From contig JAFXSQ010000071.1 in NCBI GenBank assembly GCA_017525525.1, positions 1 to 35,108 of the forward strand: DNA of 35,108 bases, in the 5' to 3' direction. Of this stretch, positions 5,615-17,338 are shown piece after piece (position 1 is the first letter of the stretch; the number at the start of each line of letters is the position of its first letter). Source of the stretch: Lachnospiraceae bacterium (GTDB taxonomy: Bacteria; Bacillota; Clostridia; Lachnospirales; Lachnospiraceae). Under the pieces are notes generated by a model, which had not been told where the DNA came from, made no database searches, and saw only the letters and a list, made by a program, of their open reading frames with translations. The translations under genes and the position numbers were made by a program.

Positions 5615-5667
5615 AGTCGAGCGTGCGACGCACGCTGTTGGTATAAGGTTTGCTTTATTCCGGCACT

Positions 5668-5755
5668 GGAGATGTACTCAAGTGGCTGAAGAGGCGCCCC
5701 TGCTAAGGGTGTAGGTCGTTCACGCGGCGCGAGGGTTCAAATCCCTCCATCTCCG
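5668..5755 (+). tRNA. tRNA-Ser (anticodon GCT)
   Basis: 88 nt. The acceptor stem GGAGATG/CATCTCC closes with discriminator G5755. The anticodon arm CGCCC-CTGCTAA-GGGTG carries GCT. A long variable arm typical of tRNA-Ser follows, then a T arm GAGGG-TTCAAAT-CCCTC. CCA is not encoded. It is the first gene of the operon and reads AGC/AGU serine codons. Confidence 0.96.
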
Positions 5756-5902
5756 TTCATGGGTACTGTATGTGTTGCATGCTATTACAAGCTCACTAAA
5801 CTCAACTACGGACTTCGTCCTTGTTTCGTTAAGTGGCTTGCATGCGTCGCACGTAAGACGCCAACTGCGCAAAGCTTGTTGCCGTCTAAGTGCTCATCGC
5901 GA
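5756..5902 (+). other. structured spacer in the tRNA operon
   Basis: No coding signal. The left part can fold through GCATGC near 5779 with GCATGC near 5840, with an inner GGAC-TTC-GTCC tip. The right part (5859-5902) is a near copy of 6135-6177 and can pair with the stretch just upstream of it. Both copies end directly before a tRNA-type 5' end. It may be a processing spacer; that is an inference. Confidence 0.55.
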
Positions 5903-6048
5903 TCCTCGATAGCTCAATGGTAGAGCACTCGGCGAGTTCCGAGGGCCGCTGTTGGTCCGACAGGATACATTTTAATCCTCGATAGCTCAATGGTAGAGCA
6001 CTCGGCGAGTTCCGAGGGCCGCTGTTGGTCCGACAGGATACATTTTAA
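5903..6048 (+). repeat. two identical 73-nt tRNA-Asn-like units in tandem
   Basis: Two perfect 73-nt copies (5903-5975, 5976-6048) stand head-to-tail before tRNA-Asn at the same 73-nt pitch. The first 31 nt equal the 5' half of tRNA-Asn: 5' acceptor strand, D arm and anticodon 5' strand. The rest differs. The anticodon hairpin (CTCGG/CCGAG) has a 6-nt loop CGAGTT, no TTCRA-type T loop is present, and the 3' end lacks a strand to pair with TCCTCGA. They are therefore not functional tRNAs by inspection. They may be recombination relics, tRNA-like decoys or an assembly artefact. Confidence 0.85.
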
Positions 6049-6120
6049 TCCTCGATAGCTCAATGGTAGAGCACTCGGCTGTTAACCGAGGGGTTGTTGG
6101 TTCGAGCCCAACTCGGGGAG
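6049..6120 (+). tRNA. tRNA-Asn (anticodon GTT)
   Basis: 72 nt. The acceptor stem TCCTCGA/TCGGGGA has one G-U pair and discriminator G6120. The anticodon arm CTCGG-CTGTTAA-CCGAG carries GTT. The T arm has the TTCGAGC loop. CCA is not encoded. It is the complete member of the three-unit tandem array. Confidence 0.96.
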
Positions 6121-6177
6121 CTTAGGCACTTAAGCGCCAACTGCGCAGGCTTGTTGCCGCCTAAGTGCTCATAGCGA
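6121..6177 (+). repeat. second copy of the hairpin spacer
   Basis: Positions 6135-6177 repeat 5859-5902 with few changes. GCACTTAAGCG near 6127 pairs with CGCCTAAGTGC near 6158, one mismatch in 11. The copy stops directly at the 5' end of tRNA-Cys, so it may position precursor cleavage. Confidence 0.65.
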
Positions 6178-6248
6178 GGTGCCATAGCCAAGTGGTAAGG
6201 CGTGGGTCTGCAACACCCTGATCGTCGGTTCAAATCCGTCTGGCACCT
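6178..6248 (+). tRNA. tRNA-Cys (anticodon GCA)
   Basis: 71 nt. The acceptor stem GGTGCCA/TGGCACC has discriminator T6248. The anticodon loop CTGCAAC carries GCA on a GGGT/ACCC stem, with the outer T-T mismatch common in bacterial tRNA-Cys. The T loop is TTCAAAT. CCA is not encoded. It is the last gene of the operon. Confidence 0.95.
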
Positions 6249-6255
6249 CTTTCTT

Positions 6256-6377: not shown

Positions 6378-7799
6378 ATGTTCGGAAAAGGCAGAGATAT
6401 GGGTTACGACGGCGGCATGAACCGTGAGCTTGAGGGCTTAAGGGCGCAGCTTGCCGAATTACAGGAGGAAAAAGAGCTCGCCGAGAGAGAACTTGAGACT
6501 ATAAATAATGACACACATCTTGGATTATGGAAAGCGCTGTATGATAAACAGGGCAACCAGACTACAGCATGGTACAGTGACGAGTTCAGACGTATGCTTG
6601 GTTACAGCAGGACAGAACTCCCGGACTCACTGGATTCATTGGGCAAGCTTATTCACCCGGATGATGTGGAAGCAGCATACGGAGCGTTCGGTGCCGCGGC
6701 TGCGGACAGGACCAACAGAACAAAGTATGATATTGATTACAGACTTCTTATGAAGAACGGTGAGTACCGCTGGTTCCATGCGGCAGGCTCCGCGATCAGG
6801 AAGAAGGACGGAACTCCGATAGTGTTCATCGGTACATTTACGGACATTGATGAGCAGAGAAGGAATGCTGAGACCCTTGAGATAAGCCAGAGGCGTTCAA
6901 CTGCGGTTGAGACCATGATGCTTGAAGGAAGCTGGAGCATGGATCTTGTGAACAACGCAATCGACGATCCGAATTCACCGATGGTATTCTCCCAGCAGTT
7001 CAAGAGGATACTCGGCTACAGCGGTTCGGATTTTCCGGATGTTATGTCATCATGGATCACAAAGATGCATCCCGATGATGTACAGGAGGCTTCCGAGGCA
7101 ATAGGCAGGCAGCTTTCGGATCCGACAGGTCAGACCGTATTCGATATGGAATACAGGATGATGCACAAGAGCGGCGAGTACATATGGGTTCGCGCATCGA
7201 GCATGGTAGTTTGGAACAGAGAGAAGACAAAACCCCTTATGGCTGCGGGTACCATACTTGACATAAGTGAGGAGAAGAGAAATTCCCTCCGCTTCCGTGA
7301 GGAGATGGCTCCGAATATTGAGTCCTTAAGGTCCGGTATATCCGAGATAGCGAAGACTGTGGATCTTGCCACAAGGCAGATGCAGGAGATGGCCGAGAGC
7401 CAGATAGCCGTGTCCGAGTCGGCAGGCAAGATTGAGGAGTCTGTGGATGAGTCCATGAACATCATCACCAGCATCCAGAGCATTGCCAACCAGACCAATC
7501 TTCTTTCGCTCAACGCGAGCATCGAGGCAGCGCGTGCGGGCGAGGCAGGAAAAGGCTTCGCGGTTGTTGCGACAGAGGTTCAGAAGCTTTCCGCTTCAAC
7601 CAAGGAAACTACAAATGACATCGCAAGAATCCTTAATGAGATGAGAGATTCGGTTAAGGATATGATGGTCAAGATTAATCAGATAAATGAGAATGTTACA
7701 GACGAGAGCACTGAGATGGAGGAGATTGATTCTACCATCGAGTCGCTGCATGCATCCGCGGATGAGATCGCAGATATGGCACAGAGTCTGTATAAGTAG
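6378..7799 (+). CDS. soluble methyl-accepting chemotaxis protein with two PAS domains
   Basis: This is a 473-aa cytoplasmic chemoreceptor with no membrane segment. A short coiled coil (about 14-42) leads into two PAS/PAC domains (about 45-160 and 180-298; each ends in a FTDIDE- or LDISEE-type PAC edge). A receptor signalling domain (about 310-473) follows, whose hairpin tip reads [19 protein letters not shown] (371-389). PAS domains often bind haem, flavin or small ligands; which one cannot be told here. The signalling domain is short and ends soon after the tip, with no CheR-docking pentapeptide. The start at 6378 is chosen over the in-frame ATG at 6324 because the latter falls at the predicted transcription start. 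CheA/CheW are not in the window, so signalling must be in trans. Confidence 0.9.
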
Positions 7800-7809
7800 A
7801 GTTTTATAA

Positions 7810-10230
7810 ATGATTACAAAGTCCAAAGATAATGCCGAAGCAAAAGATATCAAGGAAAACTCCGTGGATATCAAGGCTAAGGCTGTAAAACAGGAATTAA
7901 AGAAAGACGGATCTTCAAAGAATTTAAAAGATTCAAAAGAAAGCGGGTCTGCGGAAACTAAGGTTTCCGCAGGCGGCGCTTTTTTACGGATAGTACTTTT
8001 TACAAGTTTATTTCTTGTACTCTTTTTCTTTGCAAATAAGTTCTTCATGCCGGAGATCTCAAGGCAGAACAGCTATGTGAAAAGAAGAAATTTCTACAAC
8101 GAACCAAGGAATACGATCGAGACCGCGGTGCTTGGAGCAAGTATAGCATTTCACTCGGCCATCCCCATGCAGATGTATGAGGATTACGGTCTCTGCGCCT
8201 ATGATTTCGGTTCTTCGGGGCAGCCGGTGCTTGCGTCTTATTTCTGGCTGCGCGAGGCCTACAGACTTCACGGAGAGTCTCTTAAAAATGTGTGCATGGA
8301 CGTATCCATCCTGAGGAAAAACGAAAAATTCGAATGGTATGAAGCCGCGATCGATCCGATGAAGCTTTCGCTTTTAAAGGTTCAGGCGGTCTATGAATAT
8401 AACGACGATATCAACGACACCATAACTCATCTGTTCCCGCTTTTTGCTTATCACAGCAGATGGAATTCCCTTGCCGCTATTGATTTCGACAGGAACGGAT
8501 ATGCTGCGGAGGATTACTTAAGAGGGTATTTCTTTAATACTTCGACGGCATACTTCGATAACTATGAATATGATGAGATGGAGATACCGAATTTCTATCC
8601 GGACTACGGTGATGAGACGGTACCCTTTAAGACAGAGTCGCTTTATTATATGCAGAAGATAATCGACTTCTGTAAGGAAAAGGATCTCAACCTGATCATA
8701 TACAAGACTCCCGGTCAGGGCGTGGGAATTCCGGCGCACAACACTATCCAGCAGCTTGCGGACAAGAACGGAATACCGTTCTTCGACTTTAACTTCGAGC
8801 CCTACTTAAGCGAGGTCGGATACGTACGTCCAACAGATAATGTGGACAACGGACATCTGAATTTCTACGGCGCGTCGAAATTCACTGACTGGCTCGGAAG
8901 GTATCTTGTCGAGGAATGCGGCGCTACGGATGTTAGAGGCAAGGCGGGCTATGAGCATCTTGAAAAGCAGCTTGCCGATTATCATGAGAGATCCCTGGAC
9001 GTTATGTACTTAAGAGACGCCGAAGATCCGGTTGATTACATAAGGAAGACCATTACCAACACGGGCTTCTCGTCATTTATAGCCGTTAAGGGCGATGCGG
9101 CAACAAAGCTTACCAAGGAGCAGAGGGCGCAGTTCAAGGAGCTTGGGCTCGTCAAGCTGGCAGAGCTAAAGCCGTATGATTCCTATGCGGCGGTTATCGA
9201 TAACGGCCATGTGATGTACGAGGAGATCGTCGAGAATCCTACCAAAAAGGAGCAGATGGTAGAGGCGGGCCTTGAGCAGGATGATGAGAGTGATTATAAC
9301 ATGATCGCAAAATGGGCCGACGATCCGGATGTGTCCACCATAGATCAGGCCGAGCAGCTTACCTTTGATGATGTGAGAAACGCGCGTGAGATAAGGTTCG
9401 CCGATCCGGAAGACTACATCAAGCTTGAGGGCAAGCTTTGCGACGGAACGGTATTCAAGGTTATAAGCGGCGTGTCCAGCGAGTATGACAGGGCCTCCGT
9501 GCATCTCGAGGGAGTGCAGTCCTGCAGGAACGAAATCGGAATAAATGTGGTCGTTTACGACAGGGTAATCGGCGGTACCGTTGACAGAGCCGTGTTCGAT
9601 ACCGGCGAGATGTCGTGCAGAACCGGATATGATTATGAGAATAACTTAAGTGAGGCGCTTGAAGCGGGGAAGAGTTTTAGCGAGCTTTCGGAGGAGCTTC
9701 AAAAGCTTTATCTATATTACAGAAGATCGGATGCAAAGCGCTTTATAAGACAGCTTAGGAAGCAGGTTGGCAATACCGATTTGCTCACTTATTTAAGCGA
9801 AGTGATCAAACAGGACAGATATGTGGTATTTGTTATGGCCAAGGGTAAGATCGGCGAGGGAATCGGAGAGAAGACAAGAGCCGGTCTTGCGGAATTGGGA
9901 CTTAACGAGCTCTCGCAGATAGCAGAAGGAGACTCGTACATCGCTTTGTTTGAAAACGGCAAGCTGATAGGAGAGCATAAAGAAGCAAAATTCGGGCATA
10001 TTGCGGCTGCGGGAATGATAAACCCCGACGAGGGCGTGGCTGAGCACATAATGTATGACATGAGCAGCGGAAGGCCTGATAATACAGCGGCCGGTTCCAT
10101 CATCGTGGACGGCGTTGAGTACGCGGGCGCGACACGCGGTTTATACATACTGGTTTGGGATACGGTTACCAACATGAAGGTTGATATCATGAAGTTCGAC
10201 CCAAAGAAAACGCCCTTAAAAGAGGATTAG
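7810..10230 (+). CDS. SGNH/DltD-AlgJ-like membrane protein with duplicated FAM3/ILEI-like domains
   Basis: This 806-aa protein probably works outside the membrane with the MBOAT encoded next to it. It has a charged cytoplasmic N-terminus (1-55), one transmembrane anchor (about 57-79), then an SGNH-hydrolase-like domain (about 100-370). That domain has block I GAS (109-111, nucleophile candidate S111) and the C-terminal D346-NG-H349-LN dyad, as in DltD and alginate O-acetyl proteins. The C-terminal half holds two related units (about 408-600 and 650-797). Each has a FxxxxKGxA/K-type strand, a ..GL..L segment, DSYIA/DSYAA with (D/E)NG, and a closing GINVVVYD..FDT / GLYILVWD..FD strand; I relate this to the FAM3/ILEI carbohydrate-binding fold. 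The gene starts 10 nt after the MCP stop with a weak ribosome site. Role and pairing are inferred from gene order; an acyl hydrolase or carbohydrate-binding scaffold is possible. Confidence 0.82.
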   Translation: MITKSKDNAEAKDIKENSVDIKAKAVKQELKKDGSSKNLKDSKESGSAETKVSAGGAFLRIVLFTSLFLVLFFFANKFFMPEISRQNSYVKRRNFYNEPRNTIETAVLGASIAFHSAIPMQMYEDYGLCAYDFGSSGQPVLASYFWLREAYRLHGESLKNVCMDVSILRKNEKFEWYEAAIDPMKLSLLKVQAVYEYNDDINDTITHLFPLFAYHSRWNSLAAIDFDRNGYAAEDYLRGYFFNTSTAYFDNYEYDEMEIPNFYPDYGDETVPFKTESLYYMQKIIDFCKEKDLNLIIYKTPGQGVGIPAHNTIQQLADKNGIPFFDFNFEPYLSEVGYVRPTDNVDNGHLNFYGASKFTDWLGRYLVEECGATDVRGKAGYEHLEKQLADYHERSLDVMYLRDAEDPVDYIRKTITNTGFSSFIAVKGDAATKLTKEQRAQFKELGLVKLAELKPYDSYAAVIDNGHVMYEEIVENPTKKEQMVEAGLEQDDESDYNMIAKWADDPDVSTIDQAEQLTFDDVRNAREIRFADPEDYIKLEGKLCDGTVFKVISGVSSEYDRASVHLEGVQSCRNEIGINVVVYDRVIGGTVDRAVFDTGEMSCRTGYDYENNLSEALEAGKSFSELSEELQKLYLYYRRSDAKRFIRQLRKQVGNTDLLTYLSEVIKQDRYVVFVMAKGKIGEGIGEKTRAGLAELGLNELSQIAEGDSYIALFENGKLIGEHKEAKFGHIAAAGMINPDEGVAEHIMYDMSSGRPDNTAAGSIIVDGVEYAGATRGLYILVWDTVTNMKVDIMKFDPKKTPLKED

Positions 10231-10254
10231 TTGCAAAAAGAGGATTAGTTTCAG

Positions 10255-11823
10255 ATGAGTTTTACTGATTATTTGTTTTTCCCGTTATTCTTAATATATG
10301 CGGCGTTATACCATATCACGCCGAAGAAGATAAAGTGGTTTATTCTTCTTGCCGGCGGCATAGCATTTTACTGTACCTATGGCGCGGAGCTTCTTCCCTT
10401 TGCCATAGGCGCATGCCTTGTTGCATGGGTAGGCGGAGTGGCCATAGGAAAGCGGTATGAGAAGTTCGATGCGGCGCTTTCTCCGGAAGCGACAAAGGAG
10501 GAAAAGGCAAAGCATAACGCCAAGGCAAAGAAAGGCGCAAAGGGCATTCTCTGGCTTACAGTTGCTCTTATGCTTCTTGCCCTGGTCTTCGTCAAGACAC
10601 AGAGCTGGCTGGTACCGAAGCTCTTCGGAGAGGGCAGGATCCCGGTCATGGTTCCGCTCGGCATCTCCTACTATACGATGTCGCTCGTGGCCTACCTTGC
10701 GGATACCTACTGGAGGAAGGTTAAGGCAGAGAAGAATATCTTCAAGCTTTTGACCTTTACCATGTTCTTCCCAAAGCTTCTCGAAGGACCTATCGCAAGG
10801 TACCAGGCATTTGAAAAGCAGTTAAGCAACCCGAAGGGGTTTGATTACATAACCTTCTGTCACGGACTTCAGAGGATGCTCTGGGGTTATTTCAAGAAAA
10901 TGTGCATAGCGGACAGGCTTTCGGTATTTGTGGACACGGTATATGAAAGCTATAAGACCGAGTACGGCTCCATGCTCCTGCTTGCGACGATCTTCGCGGC
11001 ATTTTCACTCTACTGTGATTTCTCGGGGTGTATAGACATAGCGCTCGGCGCGGCGGAGGCCCTCGGCATAAAGATAGAGGAGAATTTCAAGCAGCCCTTC
11101 TTCTCGGAGAGCGCTGCGGAATTCTGGCGCAGATGGCACATTACCCTCGGTACCTGGTTTAAGGATTATATCTACATGCCGATAGTCATAAATCCGCGCA
11201 TGCTCAAGATATCAGGCTCCATAGGAAAGAAGAATAAGAGGGTCGGCAAAGCATTTATGAGCGTGATACCGCTTCTGGTGGTGTGGCTGCTCACGGGCTT
11301 GTGGCACGGCACAGGCATCAATTACATAATATGGGGGCTTTACTGGGGTATTCTGATCATAATCTCCACGGTATTTGCTCCGGAATTAAAGAAGCTTATG
11401 CTTAAGGTGACCGGACTTTTGAAGGTTGATCCGGACGGAGCGGGATATACGGCCTTCAAGAGGTTAAGGACCTTTGTGCTCTACCTGATAAGCCGAATGA
11501 TAGTTCTTTCGGGAAGCGTAATGGCTCTCGGAGTTGTGATAAAGAGGCAGTTCGTGGCTTTCGGTCCGTGGAAGCTGGTGGACAAATCGGTGTATGGTTA
11601 CGGTCTTGACCGCCCGAACTTCTGGCTGGCCGTCCTTTTGATCATCTTCCTTGTGGTTGTTGAGTCAAAGCAGAACAAGGGAGTAAACTTCCGTGAGGAG
11701 ATAGATAAGAAGAATATAGTTATAAGATGGCTTGTGTACCTCTTCGCCATATTCTTCGTACTGATCTTCGGCATGTACGGCGGCGGTTATGATGCGGCCG
11801 GGTTTGTATATATGAATTATTAA
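10255..11823 (+). CDS. MBOAT O-acyltransferase (DltB/AlgI type)
   Basis: This is a 522-aa polytopic membrane-bound O-acyltransferase. MBOAT enzymes of the DltB/AlgI group pass an acyl group from an intracellular donor across the membrane to a surface polymer. The diagnostic motif LLTGLWHGTGINYIIWG (345-361) contains the catalytic His H351. The second conserved site, EFWRRWHITLGTWFKDYIYMP (about 289-309), carries H295. The FPKLLEGPIARY segment (172-183) is also typical. The start ATG lies 24 nt behind the SGNH gene. The 18-nt motif AAAAGAGGATTAGTT at the end of that gene is duplicated in this gap. With a carrier protein and an adenylating ligase downstream, this is the DltB equivalent. The acyl group and the acceptor are unknown. 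Confidence 0.94.
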   Translation: MSFTDYLFFPLFLIYAALYHITPKKIKWFILLAGGIAFYCTYGAELLPFAIGACLVAWVGGVAIGKRYEKFDAALSPEATKEEKAKHNAKAKKGAKGILWLTVALMLLALVFVKTQSWLVPKLFGEGRIPVMVPLGISYYTMSLVAYLADTYWRKVKAEKNIFKLLTFTMFFPKLLEGPIARYQAFEKQLSNPKGFDYITFCHGLQRMLWGYFKKMCIADRLSVFVDTVYESYKTEYGSMLLLATIFAAFSLYCDFSGCIDIALGAAEALGIKIEENFKQPFFSESAAEFWRRWHITLGTWFKDYIYMPIVINPRMLKISGSIGKKNKRVGKAFMSVIPLLVVWLLTGLWHGTGINYIIWGLYWGILIIISTVFAPELKKLMLKVTGLLKVDPDGAGYTAFKRLRTFVLYLISRMIVLSGSVMALGVVIKRQFVAFGPWKLVDKSVYGYGLDRPNFWLAVLLIIFLVVVESKQNKGVNFREEIDKKNIVIRWLVYLFAIFFVLIFGMYGGGYDAAGFVYMNY

Positions 11824-11853
11824 ATAAAGATTTTTCGGGAGAAAGAGGAGGTA

Positions 11854-11890
11854 TTGACACGAAGGTGTCACTCTGAGCGAAGAGTCTTAA
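11854..11890. repeat. dispersed repeat copy with a TGACAC hairpin
   Basis: TGACAC-GAAG-GTGTCA forms a small hairpin (11854-11869) directly joined to a CACTCTGAGCGAAGAGTCTT copy of the dispersed repeat (to 11890). It lies in the MBOAT-carrier gap, so it would be part of the operon transcript. Confidence 0.6.
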
Positions 11891-11913
11891 TACGAAAGGA
11901 GACTTAAAGTAAA

Positions 11914-12141
11914 ATGGAAGAAAGAGTACTTGCACTTTTATCAGAGGAGTTCCCGGATGTGGATTTTGAGGCGTCGGACGCGCTTGTCGATGACGGAATA
12001 CTTGATTCGCTTACAATAACAGGAATCATAGCATCTCTTTCCATGGAGTTTGGCATAACCATTCCGTACGAGGAGATAATCGAGGAGAATTTCAACTCTA
12101 TCAGCGGACTTGCGAAAATGGTTGAAAGGCTTCAGGACTAA
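11914..12141 (+). CDS. acyl/D-alanyl carrier protein-like (ACP/DltC)
   Basis: This 75-aa acidic four-helix carrier protein has the phosphopantetheine attachment motif DDGILDSLTI (residues 27-36), in which S33 is the predicted modification site. It would carry the acyl group activated by the ligase encoded 3 nt downstream and hand it to the MBOAT encoded upstream, as DltC does for D-alanine. The ribosome site AAAGGAG (11894-11900) stands a rather long 13 nt before the ATG. The gene order MBOAT-carrier-ligase and tight spacing support one operon. It is too short to tell a D-alanyl carrier from an acyl carrier. Confidence 0.93.
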   Translation: MEERVLALLSEEFPDVDFEASDALVDDGILDSLTITGIIASLSMEFGITIPYEEIIEENFNSISGLAKMVERLQD

Positions 12142-12144
12142 GCT

Positions 12145-14199
12145 ATGAGTGATTATTTCGATAAAACTTTGGTCGGAAGGTTGTTTGGGCTTTCAAAGGA
12201 ATTACCTGATAAGCCGGCTCTGTGCTTTAAGAAGGACAGCATAACCTACGGCGAGCTTCCCGCGAAGATAACCGGTATGGCTGCAAAGCTAAAGGAGCGC
12301 GGAGTAAAAAAGGGTGACAGGGTGTGCATATCCGCTGTCTCAAAGCCCGAGTCCGTCCTTTGCTACCTGGCTGTATTTTATGCGGGCGGCATAGGATGCC
12401 TGCTCGACAAGAACAGCAACGCAAGGATAATGGCAGACATATGCAAGGATGCGGGTGCAACGCTTCTGGTTACCGATAAGCCCATGAAGGAGTTCGGTGA
12501 AGGGTTAAATGTAATACCGCTTCACGAGACCTACGAGAATGCTGTGTCTAACGCAACAGAAGAAATGTCTACGGAAGTAGACGAAACGGACATAGCGGAG
12601 ATTTTATTTACCACGGGAACCACCGGAAAGCCCAAGGGAGTTATGCTCTCTTACAAGGCGGTTTATAACATACTTTCGAATACCATAATAGGAGCGGACA
12701 TGAGGCAGGAGGACGTGCTTTTACTGCCCTTGCCGCTTAATCATTCCTTTGCGTTAAGGGTTCTTCGTTCTGCTCTGTGGCAGGGCGCGACGGTTGTACT
12801 GCAGAACGGCTTTACATTTGCAAAGGAAGTGGAGAATAATATAGATACCTTTAACTGCACGCGCATGGCCTGCGTGCCTGCGTCCTACGAGGTTATGAAG
12901 GGACAGATGCAGGACGCTTTCAAGAGGGTTATGTGCCGCCTGAAGTGCATAGAGTTCGGTGCGGGCAGCCTGACTGTAAGGCAGAGAAAGGAGATCACGG
13001 ATACTCTGCCGGATACCAGGATCATCAATACCTGGGGAAGCTCGGAGACGGGCGGGGCGCTCTTTTTGGATGTGACAGAGGCAGTGAAGGATGAGACGAA
13101 GATCAAGGCGCTCGGCAAGCCTTTGGATGGCAAGGTAAGCGTGAGGATACTTGACGAGGACGGCAACGAGAAGGAAAGCGACAGCACCCATCCGGGCCGT
13201 ATGTCCATAAAGGGCGACATGATCATGACCGGCTACTGGAACGACCCGGAGAACACGGAGGCCACGATAAAGGGCGACTGGCTTTTGACGGGCGATATGG
13301 CTTATGTTGAGGACGGCTTTGTGTATATGCTCGGCCGCGCGGACGACATAATAAATGTGGGCGGCGAGAAGGTCTCTCCGATAGAGGTGGAGAATACCGC
13401 CGGACAGTACGAGGGAATACGCGAGTGCGCCTGCATATCCGCGGAGGATCCCGACGGAGTCCTCGGGCAGATACCTGTTCTCTTTATAGTTCCGGATTTT
13501 GGCTATGATAAGGATGCATTTGTCAAGTTCCTTAATTCAAGACTCGAGAAGTACAAGATTCCGAAGGAGCTGGTTACGATAGATGCCATCCCGAGGAACC
13601 GCATGCAGAAGATAGACAGAAGAAGCCTGAAAAACCTCTGGGATGACAGGGATAAGCTGGAGCTGATAAATCCGGTGATACAGGCGATACTTTCGAGAAG
13701 GAGCATCAGGAATTTCACTGATAAGGAGATTAGCCCGGATGTGCTCGAGATGATCCTGAAGGCAGGCTACAATGCGCCGAGCGGACACAATCTTCAGAGC
13801 TGGAGATTCACGGTCATCGAGAGCGAGGAGAAGCTGGCCAGGCTTAAAGCACTTACCGAGGAGACTGCGAAGGCCAACGGGGTCTACTTCTACGGCTGGA
13901 ATAACCCCAAGGTAATAGTGCTCATATCCAATGACACAAGAAATGTGAACGGCTGCCAGGACGCTTCGCTAGCTGCGGAGAATATGATGCTCGCAGCGCT
14001 TTCCTACGGCATCGGAGCGGTATGGCTCAATCCGCTTATGACGCTGCGTGACAAGGAGCCGGTGAAGACTCTGCTTGATGAGTTCAAGATACCGGAGAAC
14101 CATACTGTGTGGTGCACGATGGCGCTCGGATATCCCGCAAGCCCCGGAACAAAGCTTGCGAAGAACGCGGATGTCATAAATTATGTAGACAGAGCATAA
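12145..14199 (+). CDS. adenylate-forming acyl ligase fused to a nitroreductase
   Basis: This 684-aa two-domain protein is encoded 3 nt after the carrier gene. Residues 1-505 form an ANL-superfamily ligase: A3 LFTTGTTGKPKGV (154-166), A5 NTWGSSETGG (295-304), A7 GDWLLTGD (377-384), A8 GRADDIINVGGEKVSPIEVE (397-416) and catalytic K489 in MQKIDR. Residues 506-684 are an FMN nitroreductase-like domain: SRRSIRNF (517-524), NAPSGHNLQSWRF (543-555), a central LAAENMMLAALSYGIGAVW and a closing MALGYPAS. The substrate region reads PLPLNHSFAL (195-204), more like acyl/aryl-acid ligases than the FD-type pocket of amino-acid adenylation domains, so the acid may lack an alpha-amine. The ligase would load the carrier; the flavin domain could oxidise or reduce the bound acyl group. 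The domain calls are firm; the pathway is inferred. Confidence 0.92.
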   Translation: MSDYFDKTLVGRLFGLSKELPDKPALCFKKDSITYGELPAKITGMAAKLKERGVKKGDRVCISAVSKPESVLCYLAVFYAGGIGCLLDKNSNARIMADICKDAGATLLVTDKPMKEFGEGLNVIPLHETYENAVSNATEEMSTEVDETDIAEILFTTGTTGKPKGVMLSYKAVYNILSNTIIGADMRQEDVLLLPLPLNHSFALRVLRSALWQGATVVLQNGFTFAKEVENNIDTFNCTRMACVPASYEVMKGQMQDAFKRVMCRLKCIEFGAGSLTVRQRKEITDTLPDTRIINTWGSSETGGALFLDVTEAVKDETKIKALGKPLDGKVSVRILDEDGNEKESDSTHPGRMSIKGDMIMTGYWNDPENTEATIKGDWLLTGDMAYVEDGFVYMLGRADDIINVGGEKVSPIEVENTAGQYEGIRECACISAEDPDGVLGQIPVLFIVPDFGYDKDAFVKFLNSRLEKYKIPKELVTIDAIPRNRMQKIDRRSLKNLWDDRDKLELINPVIQAILSRRSIRNFTDKEISPDVLEMILKAGYNAPSGHNLQSWRFTVIESEEKLARLKALTEETAKANGVYFYGWNNPKVIVLISNDTRNVNGCQDASLAAENMMLAALSYGIGAVWLNPLMTLRDKEPVKTLLDEFKIPENHTVWCTMALGYPASPGTKLAKNADVINYVDRA

Positions 14200-14202
14200 T
14201 AC

Positions 14203-14326
14203 GTCAGCGCCCGCTTTATGAAACGGCTCGACTGTCTGGGGCAATTTTTCCCGGCGGGACAGTGAAATGCCCGACGTAAAAATGCCCTGCCGTGTCGAGT
14301 TGAAGGTTAAGTCAAGGGGCGCTGAC
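14203..14326 (+). other. nested inverted-repeat element, possible structured RNA
   Basis: This begins 4 nt after the ligase gene. The outer arms GTCAGCGCCC (14203-14212) and GGGCGCTGAC (14317-14326) pair perfectly. Inside them CTCGAC (about 14227-14232) pairs with GTCGAG (14294-14299). Within that, either ACTGTC/GACAGT (14231-14236, 14258-14263) or GGGCAATTTTT with AAAAATGCCC (about 14239-14249, 14278-14287) can pair, and these two are mutually exclusive. No known riboswitch class is recognised. A palindromic mobile element is the alternative. Confidence 0.6.
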
Positions 14327-14351
14327 TTGATTGGTGCATGTTGAAAAAGCC

Positions 14352-14380
14352 TTGCATATGGTTTGTTTGGGTGTTACAAT
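14352..14380 (+). promoter_or_regulatory. promoter of the aminotransferase gene
   Basis: TTGCAT (14352-14357), a 17-nt spacer and TACAAT (14375-14380) stand 41 nt before the ATG at 14422. Confidence 0.7.
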
Positions 14381-14421
14381 TACACGAGTTTTGAAATACT
14401 ATAAACAAGGGAGACGATGAC

Positions 14422-15711
14422 ATGAAGAAATATACAGAGATGACACTCGAGGAGCTTAAAGATGAGCACGCGGTGTTAGAGGATGAATACAAGAAGTACC
14501 AGAGCATGAATTTAAAGCTCGATATGAGCCGCGGTAAGCCTTGCAGGGAGCAGCTCGACATATCCATGGGCATGATGGATGCTCTTAATTCACATGTTGA
14601 TCTTTCATGTGAGGACGGAACCGATTGCCGTAACTACGGGTTGCTCAGCGGTATTCCCGAGGCTAAGGTTCTGCTCGGAGACATGATGGAGAACCATCCG
14701 GACAACATTATCATATACGGTAATTCATCGCTTAATGTAATGTATGATACGGTTGCGCGCGCCATGACACACGGTATCATGGGTGGCACGCCTTGGTGCA
14801 AGCTTGACAAGGTAAAGTTCCTGTGCCCCTCACCGGGCTATGACAGGCATTTTGCCATAACCGAGTATTTCGGAATAGAGATGATAGTGGTTCCCATGAC
14901 ACCGGAAGGACCGGACATGGATATGGTTGAAGACCTTGTGTCTAAGGATGAAGCCATAAAGGGTATCTGGTGCGTGCCGAAGTATTCGAACCCGCAGGGC
15001 TACACATATTCCGATGAGACCGTAATGCGCTTTGCAAGGTTACAGCCTGCTGCAAAGGATTTCAGAATCTTCTGGGACAACGCATACGGCATACATCACC
15101 TCTATGAGGACAGACAGGAGTATCTTCCGGAGATTCTTGCCGAGTGCAAGAAGGCAGGCAACCCGGATATGGTATACAAATTCGCTTCGACTTCGAAGAT
15201 AACCTTCCCGGGAAGCGGTATTGCTTGTCTTGCAACCTCGCTCAACAATCTTGAGGACATCAAGAATCAGCTTAAGAATCAGACCATAGGTCACGATAAG
15301 GTAAACCAGCTCAGACATGTGCGTTTCTTCAAAGATATTCACGGCATGACAGAGCACATGAAGAAGCATGCGGCTATAATCCGTCCAAAGTTTGAGGCGG
15401 TAGAGCAGATCCTCGAGGATGAGCTCGGCGGACTTGGCGTGGGAGAGTGGACCAAGCCGATCGGCGGCTACTTCATCGGCTTTGATTCCCTTCCGGGATG
15501 TGCAAAGGCTATCGTTGCAAGGGCTAAGAAAGCCGGAGTGGTTATGACAGACGCGGGAGCGACATATCCGTACCACAAGGATCCTAACGATTCCAATATA
15601 CGTATAGCACCGACCTTCCCGCCGGTAGAGAGCTTAAAGACCGCAGCACAGCTCTTTGCTCTGTGTGTAAAGCTCGTATCCTGTGAGAAGCTTATCGCTG
15701 AGCATGAGTAA
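14422..15711 (+). CDS. class I PLP-dependent aminotransferase, aspartate-type
   Basis: This 429-aa fold-type I aminotransferase resembles the group typified by Corynebacterium glutamicum aspartate aminotransferase (Pfam Asp_aminotransf/MocR-like, PF12897). Supporting motifs: LDMSRGKPCREQLDIS near the N-terminus (33-48), RNYGLLSGIPEAK (71-83), the PLP-ring contact region WCVPKYSNPQGYTYS (about 180-194), the IFWDNAYGIHHLY loop (about 215-227) and the Schiff-base lysine in STSKITFPGSG (about 255-265). It probably interconverts aspartate/2-oxoglutarate and oxaloacetate/glutamate in the cytoplasm. GGGAGA lies about 9 nt before the start and the gene has its own promoter, so it need not belong to the acylation operon. 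The exact amino donor is not certain. Confidence 0.9.
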   Translation: MKKYTEMTLEELKDEHAVLEDEYKKYQSMNLKLDMSRGKPCREQLDISMGMMDALNSHVDLSCEDGTDCRNYGLLSGIPEAKVLLGDMMENHPDNIIIYGNSSLNVMYDTVARAMTHGIMGGTPWCKLDKVKFLCPSPGYDRHFAITEYFGIEMIVVPMTPEGPDMDMVEDLVSKDEAIKGIWCVPKYSNPQGYTYSDETVMRFARLQPAAKDFRIFWDNAYGIHHLYEDRQEYLPEILAECKKAGNPDMVYKFASTSKITFPGSGIACLATSLNNLEDIKNQLKNQTIGHDKVNQLRHVRFFKDIHGMTEHMKKHAAIIRPKFEAVEQILEDELGGLGVGEWTKPIGGYFIGFDSLPGCAKAIVARAKKAGVVMTDAGATYPYHKDPNDSNIRIAPTFPPVESLKTAAQLFALCVKLVSCEKLIAEHE

Positions 15712-15715
15712 AGCA

Positions 15716-15745
15716 GTGTCTGACTGAGCACAGCGAAGAATCTTA
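15716..15745. repeat. dispersed repeat copy
   Basis: GACTGAGC-ACAGCGAAGAATCTTA is a half-copy of the repeat at 4067-4136. It lies 5 nt after the aminotransferase stop and ends about 9 nt before the next gene. Confidence 0.6.
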
Positions 15746-15754
15746 TTCTTAATT

Positions 15755-17338
15755 ATGACTAACAAATTAGACAAAACTTCAAAACGAAAGAATACATCGG
15801 AGGCCCTCGCGGTCTCCGATTATTCGTCGTATCTTTATCTTATCTATATCTTCGGGTTTTATCCGATCATAACCCACAACAAATACTTCGACATAACGGT
15901 CACGAGATACTCATCATTTATGGCGGGGACTCTCGCTTACATCTTCCTGTGCGGCATGAGCATCATAGTCTGCAAAATGCTTGAGGGCAGTGTCAATACC
16001 CGGCTCCGTCATGCATTTGCGATGGCGGGCGAAAAATGGTTTGAGCGTCCGTTCGTGTGGATGTTCTTCCTTATGGTTGCGCATATCCTGGCTTATACGG
16101 ATGCGTATGACGCGGCGGAGGTAATGGTGGGGCCGGCAAGCAGATACATGGGACTTGTCACCTGGCTAGTGATGGGAGTGATGTTCATACTCATGGCACA
16201 GGGAGTGAGGCCTGAGGAGAGGCTGTTCATACCACTGGCTTTGAGCGCGCTTTATGCGTGCGTGATCGCAATCTTCCAGCACATGGAGATTGATTTCATG
16301 AACTATAAGGGCTCAATCAAGGAGAGCTTATATACCAAGTTTATCTCAACCTTTGGGAACATTAATATGTTTGCGTCCTTTTTGGGCATGGTGATACCGC
16401 TTTTTGCGGCACTGTTCATCCTCACAAAAAGGGCGTATATAAGATATGCGTCGGCGGTTCTGCTTTTCCCATGCGGCATGTGCATTATGATATGCAACAG
16501 CGACAGCATATTCCTTGCGCTTTTTGCGGGGCTCTTCGTGGCGCTTCTGCTTGCTTTAAGAGCGAGACAGCCGGTAAGGTTCGCGCTTGCTTTGTGCCTG
16601 CTTGCGGCGGGCAATCTGTCTACCATATTAGTCAATAAGTACGGGCATGCAAGATATGACAGCAAGAGGGGCGGTCTTATCATATATCTCGATAAGGTTC
16701 CGGCCGCGCTCATCATCCTCGGGGCCACACTTATTCTGCTTGGGTTAACGGTTATCTTCAAGGCAAAGATAAATGCGCTTTGCGACCGTGTGGGAGTTAA
16801 GAGGATTGCGATAGTACTGACGGTTTTGGTGGCGGTTATCATGATCGCAACGGTGATCGTCGGAGTGACAGTCATAAAAAAGGGAGTGTTCAAATTCGAT
16901 TACAAATGGGGCAGCAAGAGGGGATATATCTGGACGAAGACGGCGGAGCTTTTTAAGGATGCGCCTTTAAGGAACAAGCTTTTCGGCTACGGTGATGAGA
17001 GCCTAAAGAGTCTGATGACTGATTATTATTACACCGAGATGATAGATGTGACCGGCACCGTGTATGACAACGCTCACTGTGAACCGCTGCATTATCTGAT
17101 AACCACGGGCATAACGGGCTTGTTAGCATACCTCGGCCTTTTGTTCGTCACAATCAGGAGCGTGATAAAAAGGGGACTTGACTGCGGGCCGGCGTGCTGT
17201 CTGCTTGCGGCAGTTTTCGGCTATCTCGGGCAGAGCCTTATAACCATAAGCCAGCCCATCACAACACCGCTGTTTTTTGTAATGCTTGCTACCATGTCGG
17301 GCTTTTCAAGAACCTGCAAGCCGAGGAATGCCGCTTAA
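15755..17338 (+). CDS. O-antigen ligase/polymerase-like polytopic membrane protein
   Basis: This 527-aa integral membrane protein has about 12 hydrophobic segments. Two features fit the Wzy/WaaL (O-antigen ligase) superfamily: ISTFGNINMFASFLGMVIPL (about 194-213), matching the common TFGN.N..A.FL.. motif, and the late extracytoplasmic loop with WGSKRGYIW (about 386-394) followed by AHCEPLHYLITTGITGLLAY (about 440-459), matching AH..YL..L...G..GL. Such proteins polymerise or transfer lipid-linked glycans on the outer face of the membrane. In a monoderm this could act on teichoic-acid-like or exopolysaccharide chains, which would suit the acylation genes upstream. That link is inference. No good ribosome site precedes the ATG at 15755, so the start is less certain. 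The gene follows the aminotransferase by 43 nt. Confidence 0.8.
   Translation: MTNKLDKTSKRKNTSEALAVSDYSSYLYLIYIFGFYPIITHNKYFDITVTRYSSFMAGTLAYIFLCGMSIIVCKMLEGSVNTRLRHAFAMAGEKWFERPFVWMFFLMVAHILAYTDAYDAAEVMVGPASRYMGLVTWLVMGVMFILMAQGVRPEERLFIPLALSALYACVIAIFQHMEIDFMNYKGSIKESLYTKFISTFGNINMFASFLGMVIPLFAALFILTKRAYIRYASAVLLFPCGMCIMICNSDSIFLALFAGLFVALLLALRARQPVRFALALCLLAAGNLSTILVNKYGHARYDSKRGGLIIYLDKVPAALIILGATLILLGLTVIFKAKINALCDRVGVKRIAIVLTVLVAVIMIATVIVGVTVIKKGVFKFDYKWGSKRGYIWTKTAELFKDAPLRNKLFGYGDESLKSLMTDYYYTEMIDVTGTVYDNAHCEPLHYLITTGITGLLAYLGLLFVTIRSVIKRGLDCGPACCLLAAVFGYLGQSLITISQPITTPLFFVMLATMSGFSRTCKPRNAA

Follow-up and report, generated by a model that had tools for sequence, protein, structure and literature searches.

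A four-gene locus of a Lachnospiraceae bacterium joining a ligase-nitroreductase fusion to carrier, MBOAT and SGNH proteins: a probable carrier-fed acylation system for a non-amino acid

The best-studied bacterial MBOATs include AlgI, PatAB and DltB, and WssH is also named, in the sections of PMC9558356 on which we draw. According to the part of PMC12148441 that treats the C-terminal tail of PatA, the Tyr of its motif is acylated and an acetylated peptide can feed PatB. DltX fills the role of this tail in the Dlt system, and the paper sets the carrier-fed Dlt system against MBOAT-SGNH pairs that are fed by acyl-CoA. The His pair of DltB has been described (PMC11035591, relevant section).

Here we describe a locus in a window of 35,108 nucleotides (the whole stretch of DNA that was analysed) and compare it with these systems. 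The locus shares with Dlt (DltA, DltB, DltC, DltD, DltX) the division of labour among ligase, carrier, MBOAT and SGNH parts and the carrier-bound donor. It differs from Dlt in that its ligase lacks the amino-acid-type motif and belongs to another clade, the shuttle motif is on the MBOAT instead of on DltX, the ligase bears an FMN domain and the SGNH protein bears FAM3-like units. Like the PatA-PatB and AlgI-AlgX/WssH O-acetylation systems, it has an MBOAT with a C-terminal FxYxxF-type shuttle, a separate SGNH protein and, as predicted here, envelope or extracellular glycans as acceptors; unlike them, it has a dedicated carrier protein and ligase. Our results suggested that the locus probably encodes an MBOAT-SGNH system that receives its acyl group from a carrier, the cargo being a carboxylic acid other than an alpha-amino acid. 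Acylation of surface or secreted material is very likely, and a glycan is the likely target. In the open-access literature, we found no description of a ligase-nitroreductase combined with a carrier, an MBOAT and an SGNH protein.

Four ORFs on the plus strand stand in a row at 7810-14199, encoding the SGNH protein, the MBOAT, the carrier protein and the ligase-nitroreductase fusion (Table 1), with intergenic gaps of 24, 90 and 3 bases in this order. A sequence-only reading of this DNA had proposed the functions of DltD, DltB, DltC and DltA in the order D-B-C-A, a dlt-like acylation logic and a ligase fused to a nitroreductase. The row was borne out by the ORFs together with Pfam matches and motifs, the architecture of the four parts agrees with the proposed logic, and the AMP-binding and Nitroreductase matches fall in one frame. 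The fusion was found in 15 genomes and is therefore no sequencing accident. Terminator-like sites were at chance level (9 versus 8.5) and promoter-like sites numbered 19 versus 13.3 (sd 3.4); the operon ends were not set by either.

Table 1. Coordinates of the features in the window
Feature	Position	Strand	Basis or remark
SGNH protein ORF	7810-10230	+	806 aa
SGNH acyltransferase-like domain	7810..8994	+	one N-terminal TM helix (residues 57-75, hydropathy); predicted Ser111, His349
FAM3/ILEI-like unit 1	8995..9609	+	C-half ~396-466, then N-half ~551-600; Pfam ILEI and comparison with L042
FAM3/ILEI-like unit 2	9772..10227	+	halves ordered as in unit 1; C-half resembles unit 1, N-half by eye
MBOAT ORF	10255-11823	+	522 aa
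MBOAT acyltransferase (His295, His351)	10255..11823	+	Pfam MBOAT E 5e-17; TIGR04091 below cut-off
Putative acyl-shuttle motif FVYMNY, MBOAT C-terminus	11803..11820	+	motif; analogy to PatA and DltX suggests its function
Carrier ORF	11914-12141	+	75 aa
Acyl carrier protein, phosphopantetheine site Ser32	11914..12141	+	Pfam PP-binding E 4e-6
Ligase-nitroreductase ORF	12145-14199	+	684 aa
AMP-forming acid ligase domain	12145..13659	+	Pfam AMP-binding E 2e-59, AMP-binding_C
Nitroreductase-family (FMN) domain fused to ligase	13660..14196	+	Pfam Nitroreductase E 3e-27
O-antigen-ligase-like gene	15755-17338		Pfam Wzy_C

The ligase carries the motif PLNHSFALRVLR at residues 197-208 (12733-12768), where DltA-like ligases mostly read FDFDVSVKD. 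The other fused ligases in the alignment have PLNHSFALRVLR or close variants, and Arg205 is present in the aligned acid ligases except that of L047. In amino-acid ligases, the Asp contacts the amino group of the substrate. The amino-acid-type Asp motif was absent from the window ligase and from 14 other fused ligases (for L078 and L079, on identity only). It is kept in 12 of the 14 DltA-like ligases of the genus and order, L068 having Ser and L075 not matching the pattern; these 14 were taken from 20 DltA-family loci, and the other six, which are NRPS-length frames, were left out. At the level of the motif, the earlier claim of an acid-type rather than D-alanine-type ligase was thus upheld, and a cargo other than an amino acid is predicted with good confidence.

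A diverged D-alanylation (Dlt) operon, putting D-alanine onto a teichoic-acid-like polymer, would comprise the same four functions, and the family searches and the phylogeny bear on this alternative. The top NCBIfam matches of the window ligase, none of which reached its cut-off, were acyl-CoA ligases and MenE, and no DltA model was among the best 25 of its 119 NCBIfam matches. The window ligase was also not among the TIGR01734 matches of its own genome at E 1e-60. None of 41 relatives (own genome included) had a match above the curated cut-off of this model, whereas 2 of the 14 genomes used as controls did. In a tree of 32 ligases, eight DltA-like ligases of the genus and order (12 of the 20 DltA-family loci, minus L056, L057, L065 and L067) formed a clade with 100/100 support, and the 15 fused ligases fell in a separate 100/100 clade. 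The unfused ligases of L041 and L042 nest within the fused clade, L042 on a long branch with weak support for its exact position, and this fits one origin of the fusion and two losses. A profile search of the PDB gave no match at E 1e-90; at 1e-55, linear gramicidin synthase came first, followed by MenE, another peptide synthetase, FadD5 and 4-coumarate ligases. Such a ranking of sequence matches leaves the substrate of the ligase unfixed.

The motifs of the window MBOAT are WRRWH295, LWHG351 and FVYMNY, the last ending in Y, not F. Both His motifs and a C-terminal FxYxx[FY] were found in all 19 cassette MBOATs. They were found as well in the five other MBOATs of the window's own genome (G000, contigs C7, C8 and C37), around each of which 9-9.5 kb contained no match to a carrier or ligase. 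The tail is therefore general to this type of MBOAT and was rejected as a mark of the cassette; it is the carrier and the ligase that set the cassette apart. A search of 7600-14600 in all six frames found FxYxx[FY] at the end of the MBOAT and of no other frame, and no separate frame for a DltX-like microprotein was found there. We propose that the Tyr of FVYMNY on the MBOAT itself would make DltX unnecessary. The score of the window MBOAT against the DltB equivalog was 167.2 bits, short of the cut-off of 375.

All 18 carriers listed have the phosphopantetheine Ser. The window carrier matched the DltC models weakly (E 2.2e-6) and below cut-off; its best match, a cispentacin carrier, was below cut-off too. 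These weak DltC and DltB matches are what a diverged Dlt operon would have in its favour besides the shared functions. Against it stand the missing Asp motif, the ranking of the DltA models, the separate ligase clade, the DltB score and the absence of a separate DltX-like frame from 7600-14600; we rejected membership of the Dlt operon and consider D-alanylation very unlikely here. The window MBOAT and ligase and the MBOAT of L042, a relative, likewise fell short of the Dlt models with which they were compared. A carrier-fed system for a non-amino acid is the reading that we pursue below.

The nitroreductase domain shares its sequence family and conserved residues with the nitroreductase family (including albonoursin synthase and CLA-ER), and differs in being fused to an acid ligase. 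R13, S15, R17, A39, P40, G42, N44 and G157 (domain numbering) are invariant in 13 aligned members. We take these residues to line the FMN site, which would accordingly be intact. Of the three findings that would have spoken against the sequence-only reading, namely a D-alanine site in the ligase (judged here by its sequence motif), loss of the FMN site and homology to known dlt operons, none was made. Compared with L016, dN/dS was 0.061 for the ligase, 0.045 for the nitroreductase domain and 0.030 for the carrier, ratios that are rough because dS is 1.0-1.6. The nitroreductase domain is under purifying selection. This selection, the conserved residues and the retention of the domain in 15 genomes, including one from another family of the order, argue against the idea that the domain leaves the acyl group alone and is a flavin-recycling, regulatory or structural appendage. 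That idea draws on two relatives without the domain, L041 and L042, both nested within the fused clade (L042 retaining the remaining cassette), and on generic nitroreductases being the closest solved relatives; we regard it as rather improbable. On balance, we favour a domain that does modify the acyl group.

The direction of the redox reaction is a further question. The domain was below the cut-off of every NCBIfam model that it matched. Its solved relatives include a generic nitroreductase (3ek3, E 5e-24), albonoursin synthase (8uc3, E 5.7e-7) and the enone reductase CLA-ER (4qlx, E 2.2e-5), and since they span these types, the direction is not set by them. Albonoursin synthase lends some support to a flavin domain that dehydrogenates the acyl group instead of reducing it, whereas 3ek3 matches far better and CLA-ER is listed too. 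Dehydrogenating flavoproteins of the albonoursin synthase type need O2. Because the host is presumably an anaerobe, reduction is favoured over oxidation, and we consider dehydrogenation unlikely. Reduction of a C=C bond, suggested by known chemistry together with the sequence, is a possible activity of the domain to which we give somewhat less than an even chance.

In the SGNH protein, the putative catalytic motifs G-x-S111 and D346-x-x-H349-x-N are common to all 14 proteins that were aligned from the surroundings of MBOAT or ligase genes. A Pfam scan of the window protein gave neither an SGNH nor a DltD match, and the assignment is made because of the motifs, a family match playing no part; both the catalytic Ser and the His were found at this level. 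Pfam ILEI matched one stretch of the window protein, residues 423-466 (E 2.6e-9), and an internal comparison by two-sequence BLAST (E 6e-9) revealed the second unit. The two FAM3/ILEI-like units described in the earlier reading were thereby recovered.

These units resemble FAM3/ILEI and the POMGnT1 stem through sequence matches to both domain halves, and differ in being attached to a bacterial SGNH protein and in having the halves reversed in single-unit relatives. FAM3A aligned with window residues 396-463, the C-half, which alone is not significant (E 0.44). The N-half of the L033 homologue aligned with FAM3C (E 2e-4), FAM3B (0.015) and FAM3A (0.09). The N-half comes first in FAM3 and the C-half comes first in the single-unit proteins of L030, L032 and L042; this reversal points to either circular permutation or domain swapping. 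The order in the window and L033 is C-N-C-N; its middle N-C pair has the FAM3 order and could also make up a domain in that order, and the Pfam match of L033 spans this pair. Degenerate FAM3-like versions were seen by eye in L034, L035 and L037. No FAM3-like N-half was seen in the SGNH protein of L038, and the DHHW/AlgX-type partners of L039 and L079 had no ILEI match. A Pfam ILEI search over 120 genomes missed even the copy of the own genome and is uninformative on distribution.

Sugar binding has been reported for FAM3C, FAM3A and the POMGnT1 stem (PMC9802357, in the part relevant here). For this reason we propose by analogy that the FAM3-like units may grip the glycan, a proposal about as likely to be right as wrong. 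With them, bacteria would be using a fold that is known from animal proteins of signalling and glycosylation.

The distribution of the fusion was surveyed in family, order, phylum and genus samples, which overlap. At E 1e-90 or better, fused ligases were found in 12 of 397 family genomes (own included, with 2 further unfused matches), in 3 of 295 order genomes (the own genome is among these, and another belongs to a different family, with 59% identity) and in 1 of 398 phylum genomes, which is the own genome. At E 1e-60, two of 37 genus genomes had a fused ligase, and there was one unfused match. This patchy spread suggests horizontal transfer. The sole named record with the fusion comes from an uncultured Clostridiales isolate, RUG655; this contig shows 89% identity along the fusion and was counted as one with a G173 contig. 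RUG presumably stands for rumen genomes.

The 15 fused loci are the window, L016, L030-L040, L078 and L079. A carrier was found in 13 of them (not L031 or L040), an MBOAT in 12 (not L030, L040 or L016, the last a 3.3-kb contig) and an SGNH candidate in 13 (not L016 or L040; that of L031 was recognised by eye in a frame cut at the contig end, that of L039 is of the DHHW type and that of L079 is AlgX-type). In the L030 genome, another contig opens with an MBOAT match and two further matches lie elsewhere; these may or may not belong to the locus. All four parts were present on the stretches examined in 11 of the 15 loci, spread in L036 over ~11 kb with other genes between them. The gene order of the window, which the earlier reading proposed to look for elsewhere, recurs in three other fused loci (L038, L039 and L078). 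L078, which is from another family, has a second SGNH-like sequence at 12665-15760, in two frames (305 and 199 aa), ahead of its SGNH and MBOAT genes.

Glycan genes surround 4 of the 15 fused loci. L033 has GT2, polysaccharide pyruvyl transferase and ABC neighbours; L035 has GT8, GT2 and an epimerase; L036 has GT4, a CDP-glycerol glycerophosphotransferase and an epimerase; and L079 has a second MBOAT, AlgX, ABC-2 and an epimerase. L031 adjoins an AT3 acyltransferase gene. These neighbours count against a small molecule or a lipid as the acceptor in place of a polymer, as in natural-product tailoring, and so do the membrane anchor of the SGNH partner and the FAM3-like units on its presumed outer part. 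Two observations point the other way. No glycan genes were seen among the scanned neighbours of the window, L034, L037, L038 and L078 (some neighbours were scanned, and the unlinked Wzy_C gene of the window is set apart). In L040, the fusion (9270-11321) lies inside a PKS-NRPS cluster with no MBOAT nearby and with two neighbours that look radical-SAM-like by eye. The fusion is therefore not bound to polymer acylation, and, judging by the L040 setting, the enzyme may be able to provide an acyl starter elsewhere. For the cassette itself, we consider a small-molecule or lipid acceptor quite unlikely and retain a surface glycan as the expected target.

Among the nine unfused ligase loci (L041-L049; matches in G026, G033, G081 and G098 are excluded from this tally), carrier, MBOAT and SGNH matches occurred together in L042, L044, L045, L046, L048 and L049. 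L043 had a carrier only, and L041 and L047 had no carrier, MBOAT or SGNH match. In L045, a gene matching CitMHS and Na_sulph_symp (7283-8686, E 4e-44) lies between the carrier and the ligase, and a gene of the same type (8658-10076, E 1.5e-46) lies directly upstream of the ligase in L046. These anion-transporter genes hint at a di- or tricarboxylate cargo in the two loci; the families also hold sulfate carriers. Near the DltA-like ligases, a carrier was found in 13 of 14 cases and an MBOAT match (E < 1e-5) in 3 of 14, with flanks of at most 1.5 kb seen. The activation module, which may be an amino-acid ligase, an acid ligase or an acid ligase with an FMN reductase, looks as if it has been swapped between otherwise similar cassettes.

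From families and motifs, a route in four steps can be proposed. The ligase domain would make the acyl-AMP and load the acid on Ser32 of the carrier. The fused FMN domain would then alter the acyl group, most likely by C=C reduction at the expense of NAD(P)H; the opposite reaction, dehydrogenation, calls for an acceptor such as O2 and would be unlikely in a presumed anaerobe. By analogy with PatA and DltX, the MBOAT would take the acyl group off the carrier, move it through the membrane and place it on the Tyr of its own FVYMNY. Finally, Ser111 of the membrane-anchored SGNH protein would take the acyl group and esterify a surface glycan, which the FAM3-like units might hold, as the POMGnT1 stem and the sugar binding of FAM3 proteins would suggest.

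As a tentative extension, which we think less likely than not, an unsaturated acid, perhaps a fumarate-like dicarboxylate or a plant phenolic, might be reduced on the ligase-flavin enzyme and put on a surface glycan, so that the coat would be set by the available acids and the redox state, with activation modules exchanged between cassettes. The loci suggest a further class of system, which is carrier-fed, uses a non-amino-acid ligase and has an MBOAT that bears the shuttle Tyr itself; this branch would add a built-in flavin step. Surface acyl groups that have not yet been described would be predicted in rumen or gut Clostridia, and the cassette offers a defined four-gene set with which to test for them.

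The genes downstream of the fusion were also considered. The O-antigen-ligase-like protein had been suggested earlier as the source of the acylated polymer, and this suggestion was not sustained. At E 1e-30, the gene has relatives in 33 of the 37 genus genomes, versus 2 of 37 for the fusion, and no match to it was found in the other cassette loci examined. In eight stretches around its relatives, some of which end early at contig ends, no cassette gene was found. A tyrosyl-tRNA synthetase stands beside the relative in three of these stretches (L109, L110 and L111), and the aminotransferase that neighbours the gene in the window is near it only in L115, from G173, whose fusion is on another contig. 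The Wzy_C gene, being widespread in the genus with no link to the cassette found, was rejected as a partner. The aspartate aminotransferase at 14422-15711 was rejected as a cassette part as well; it is of housekeeping type Ic (661.9 bits, cut-off 435), and BLAST gave no match to it in 20 ligase loci. On the other side of the cassette, tRNA-Ser, tRNA-Asn and tRNA-Cys genes lie at 5667-6249, upstream of a PAS chemoreceptor and the cassette, and may mark an integration region.
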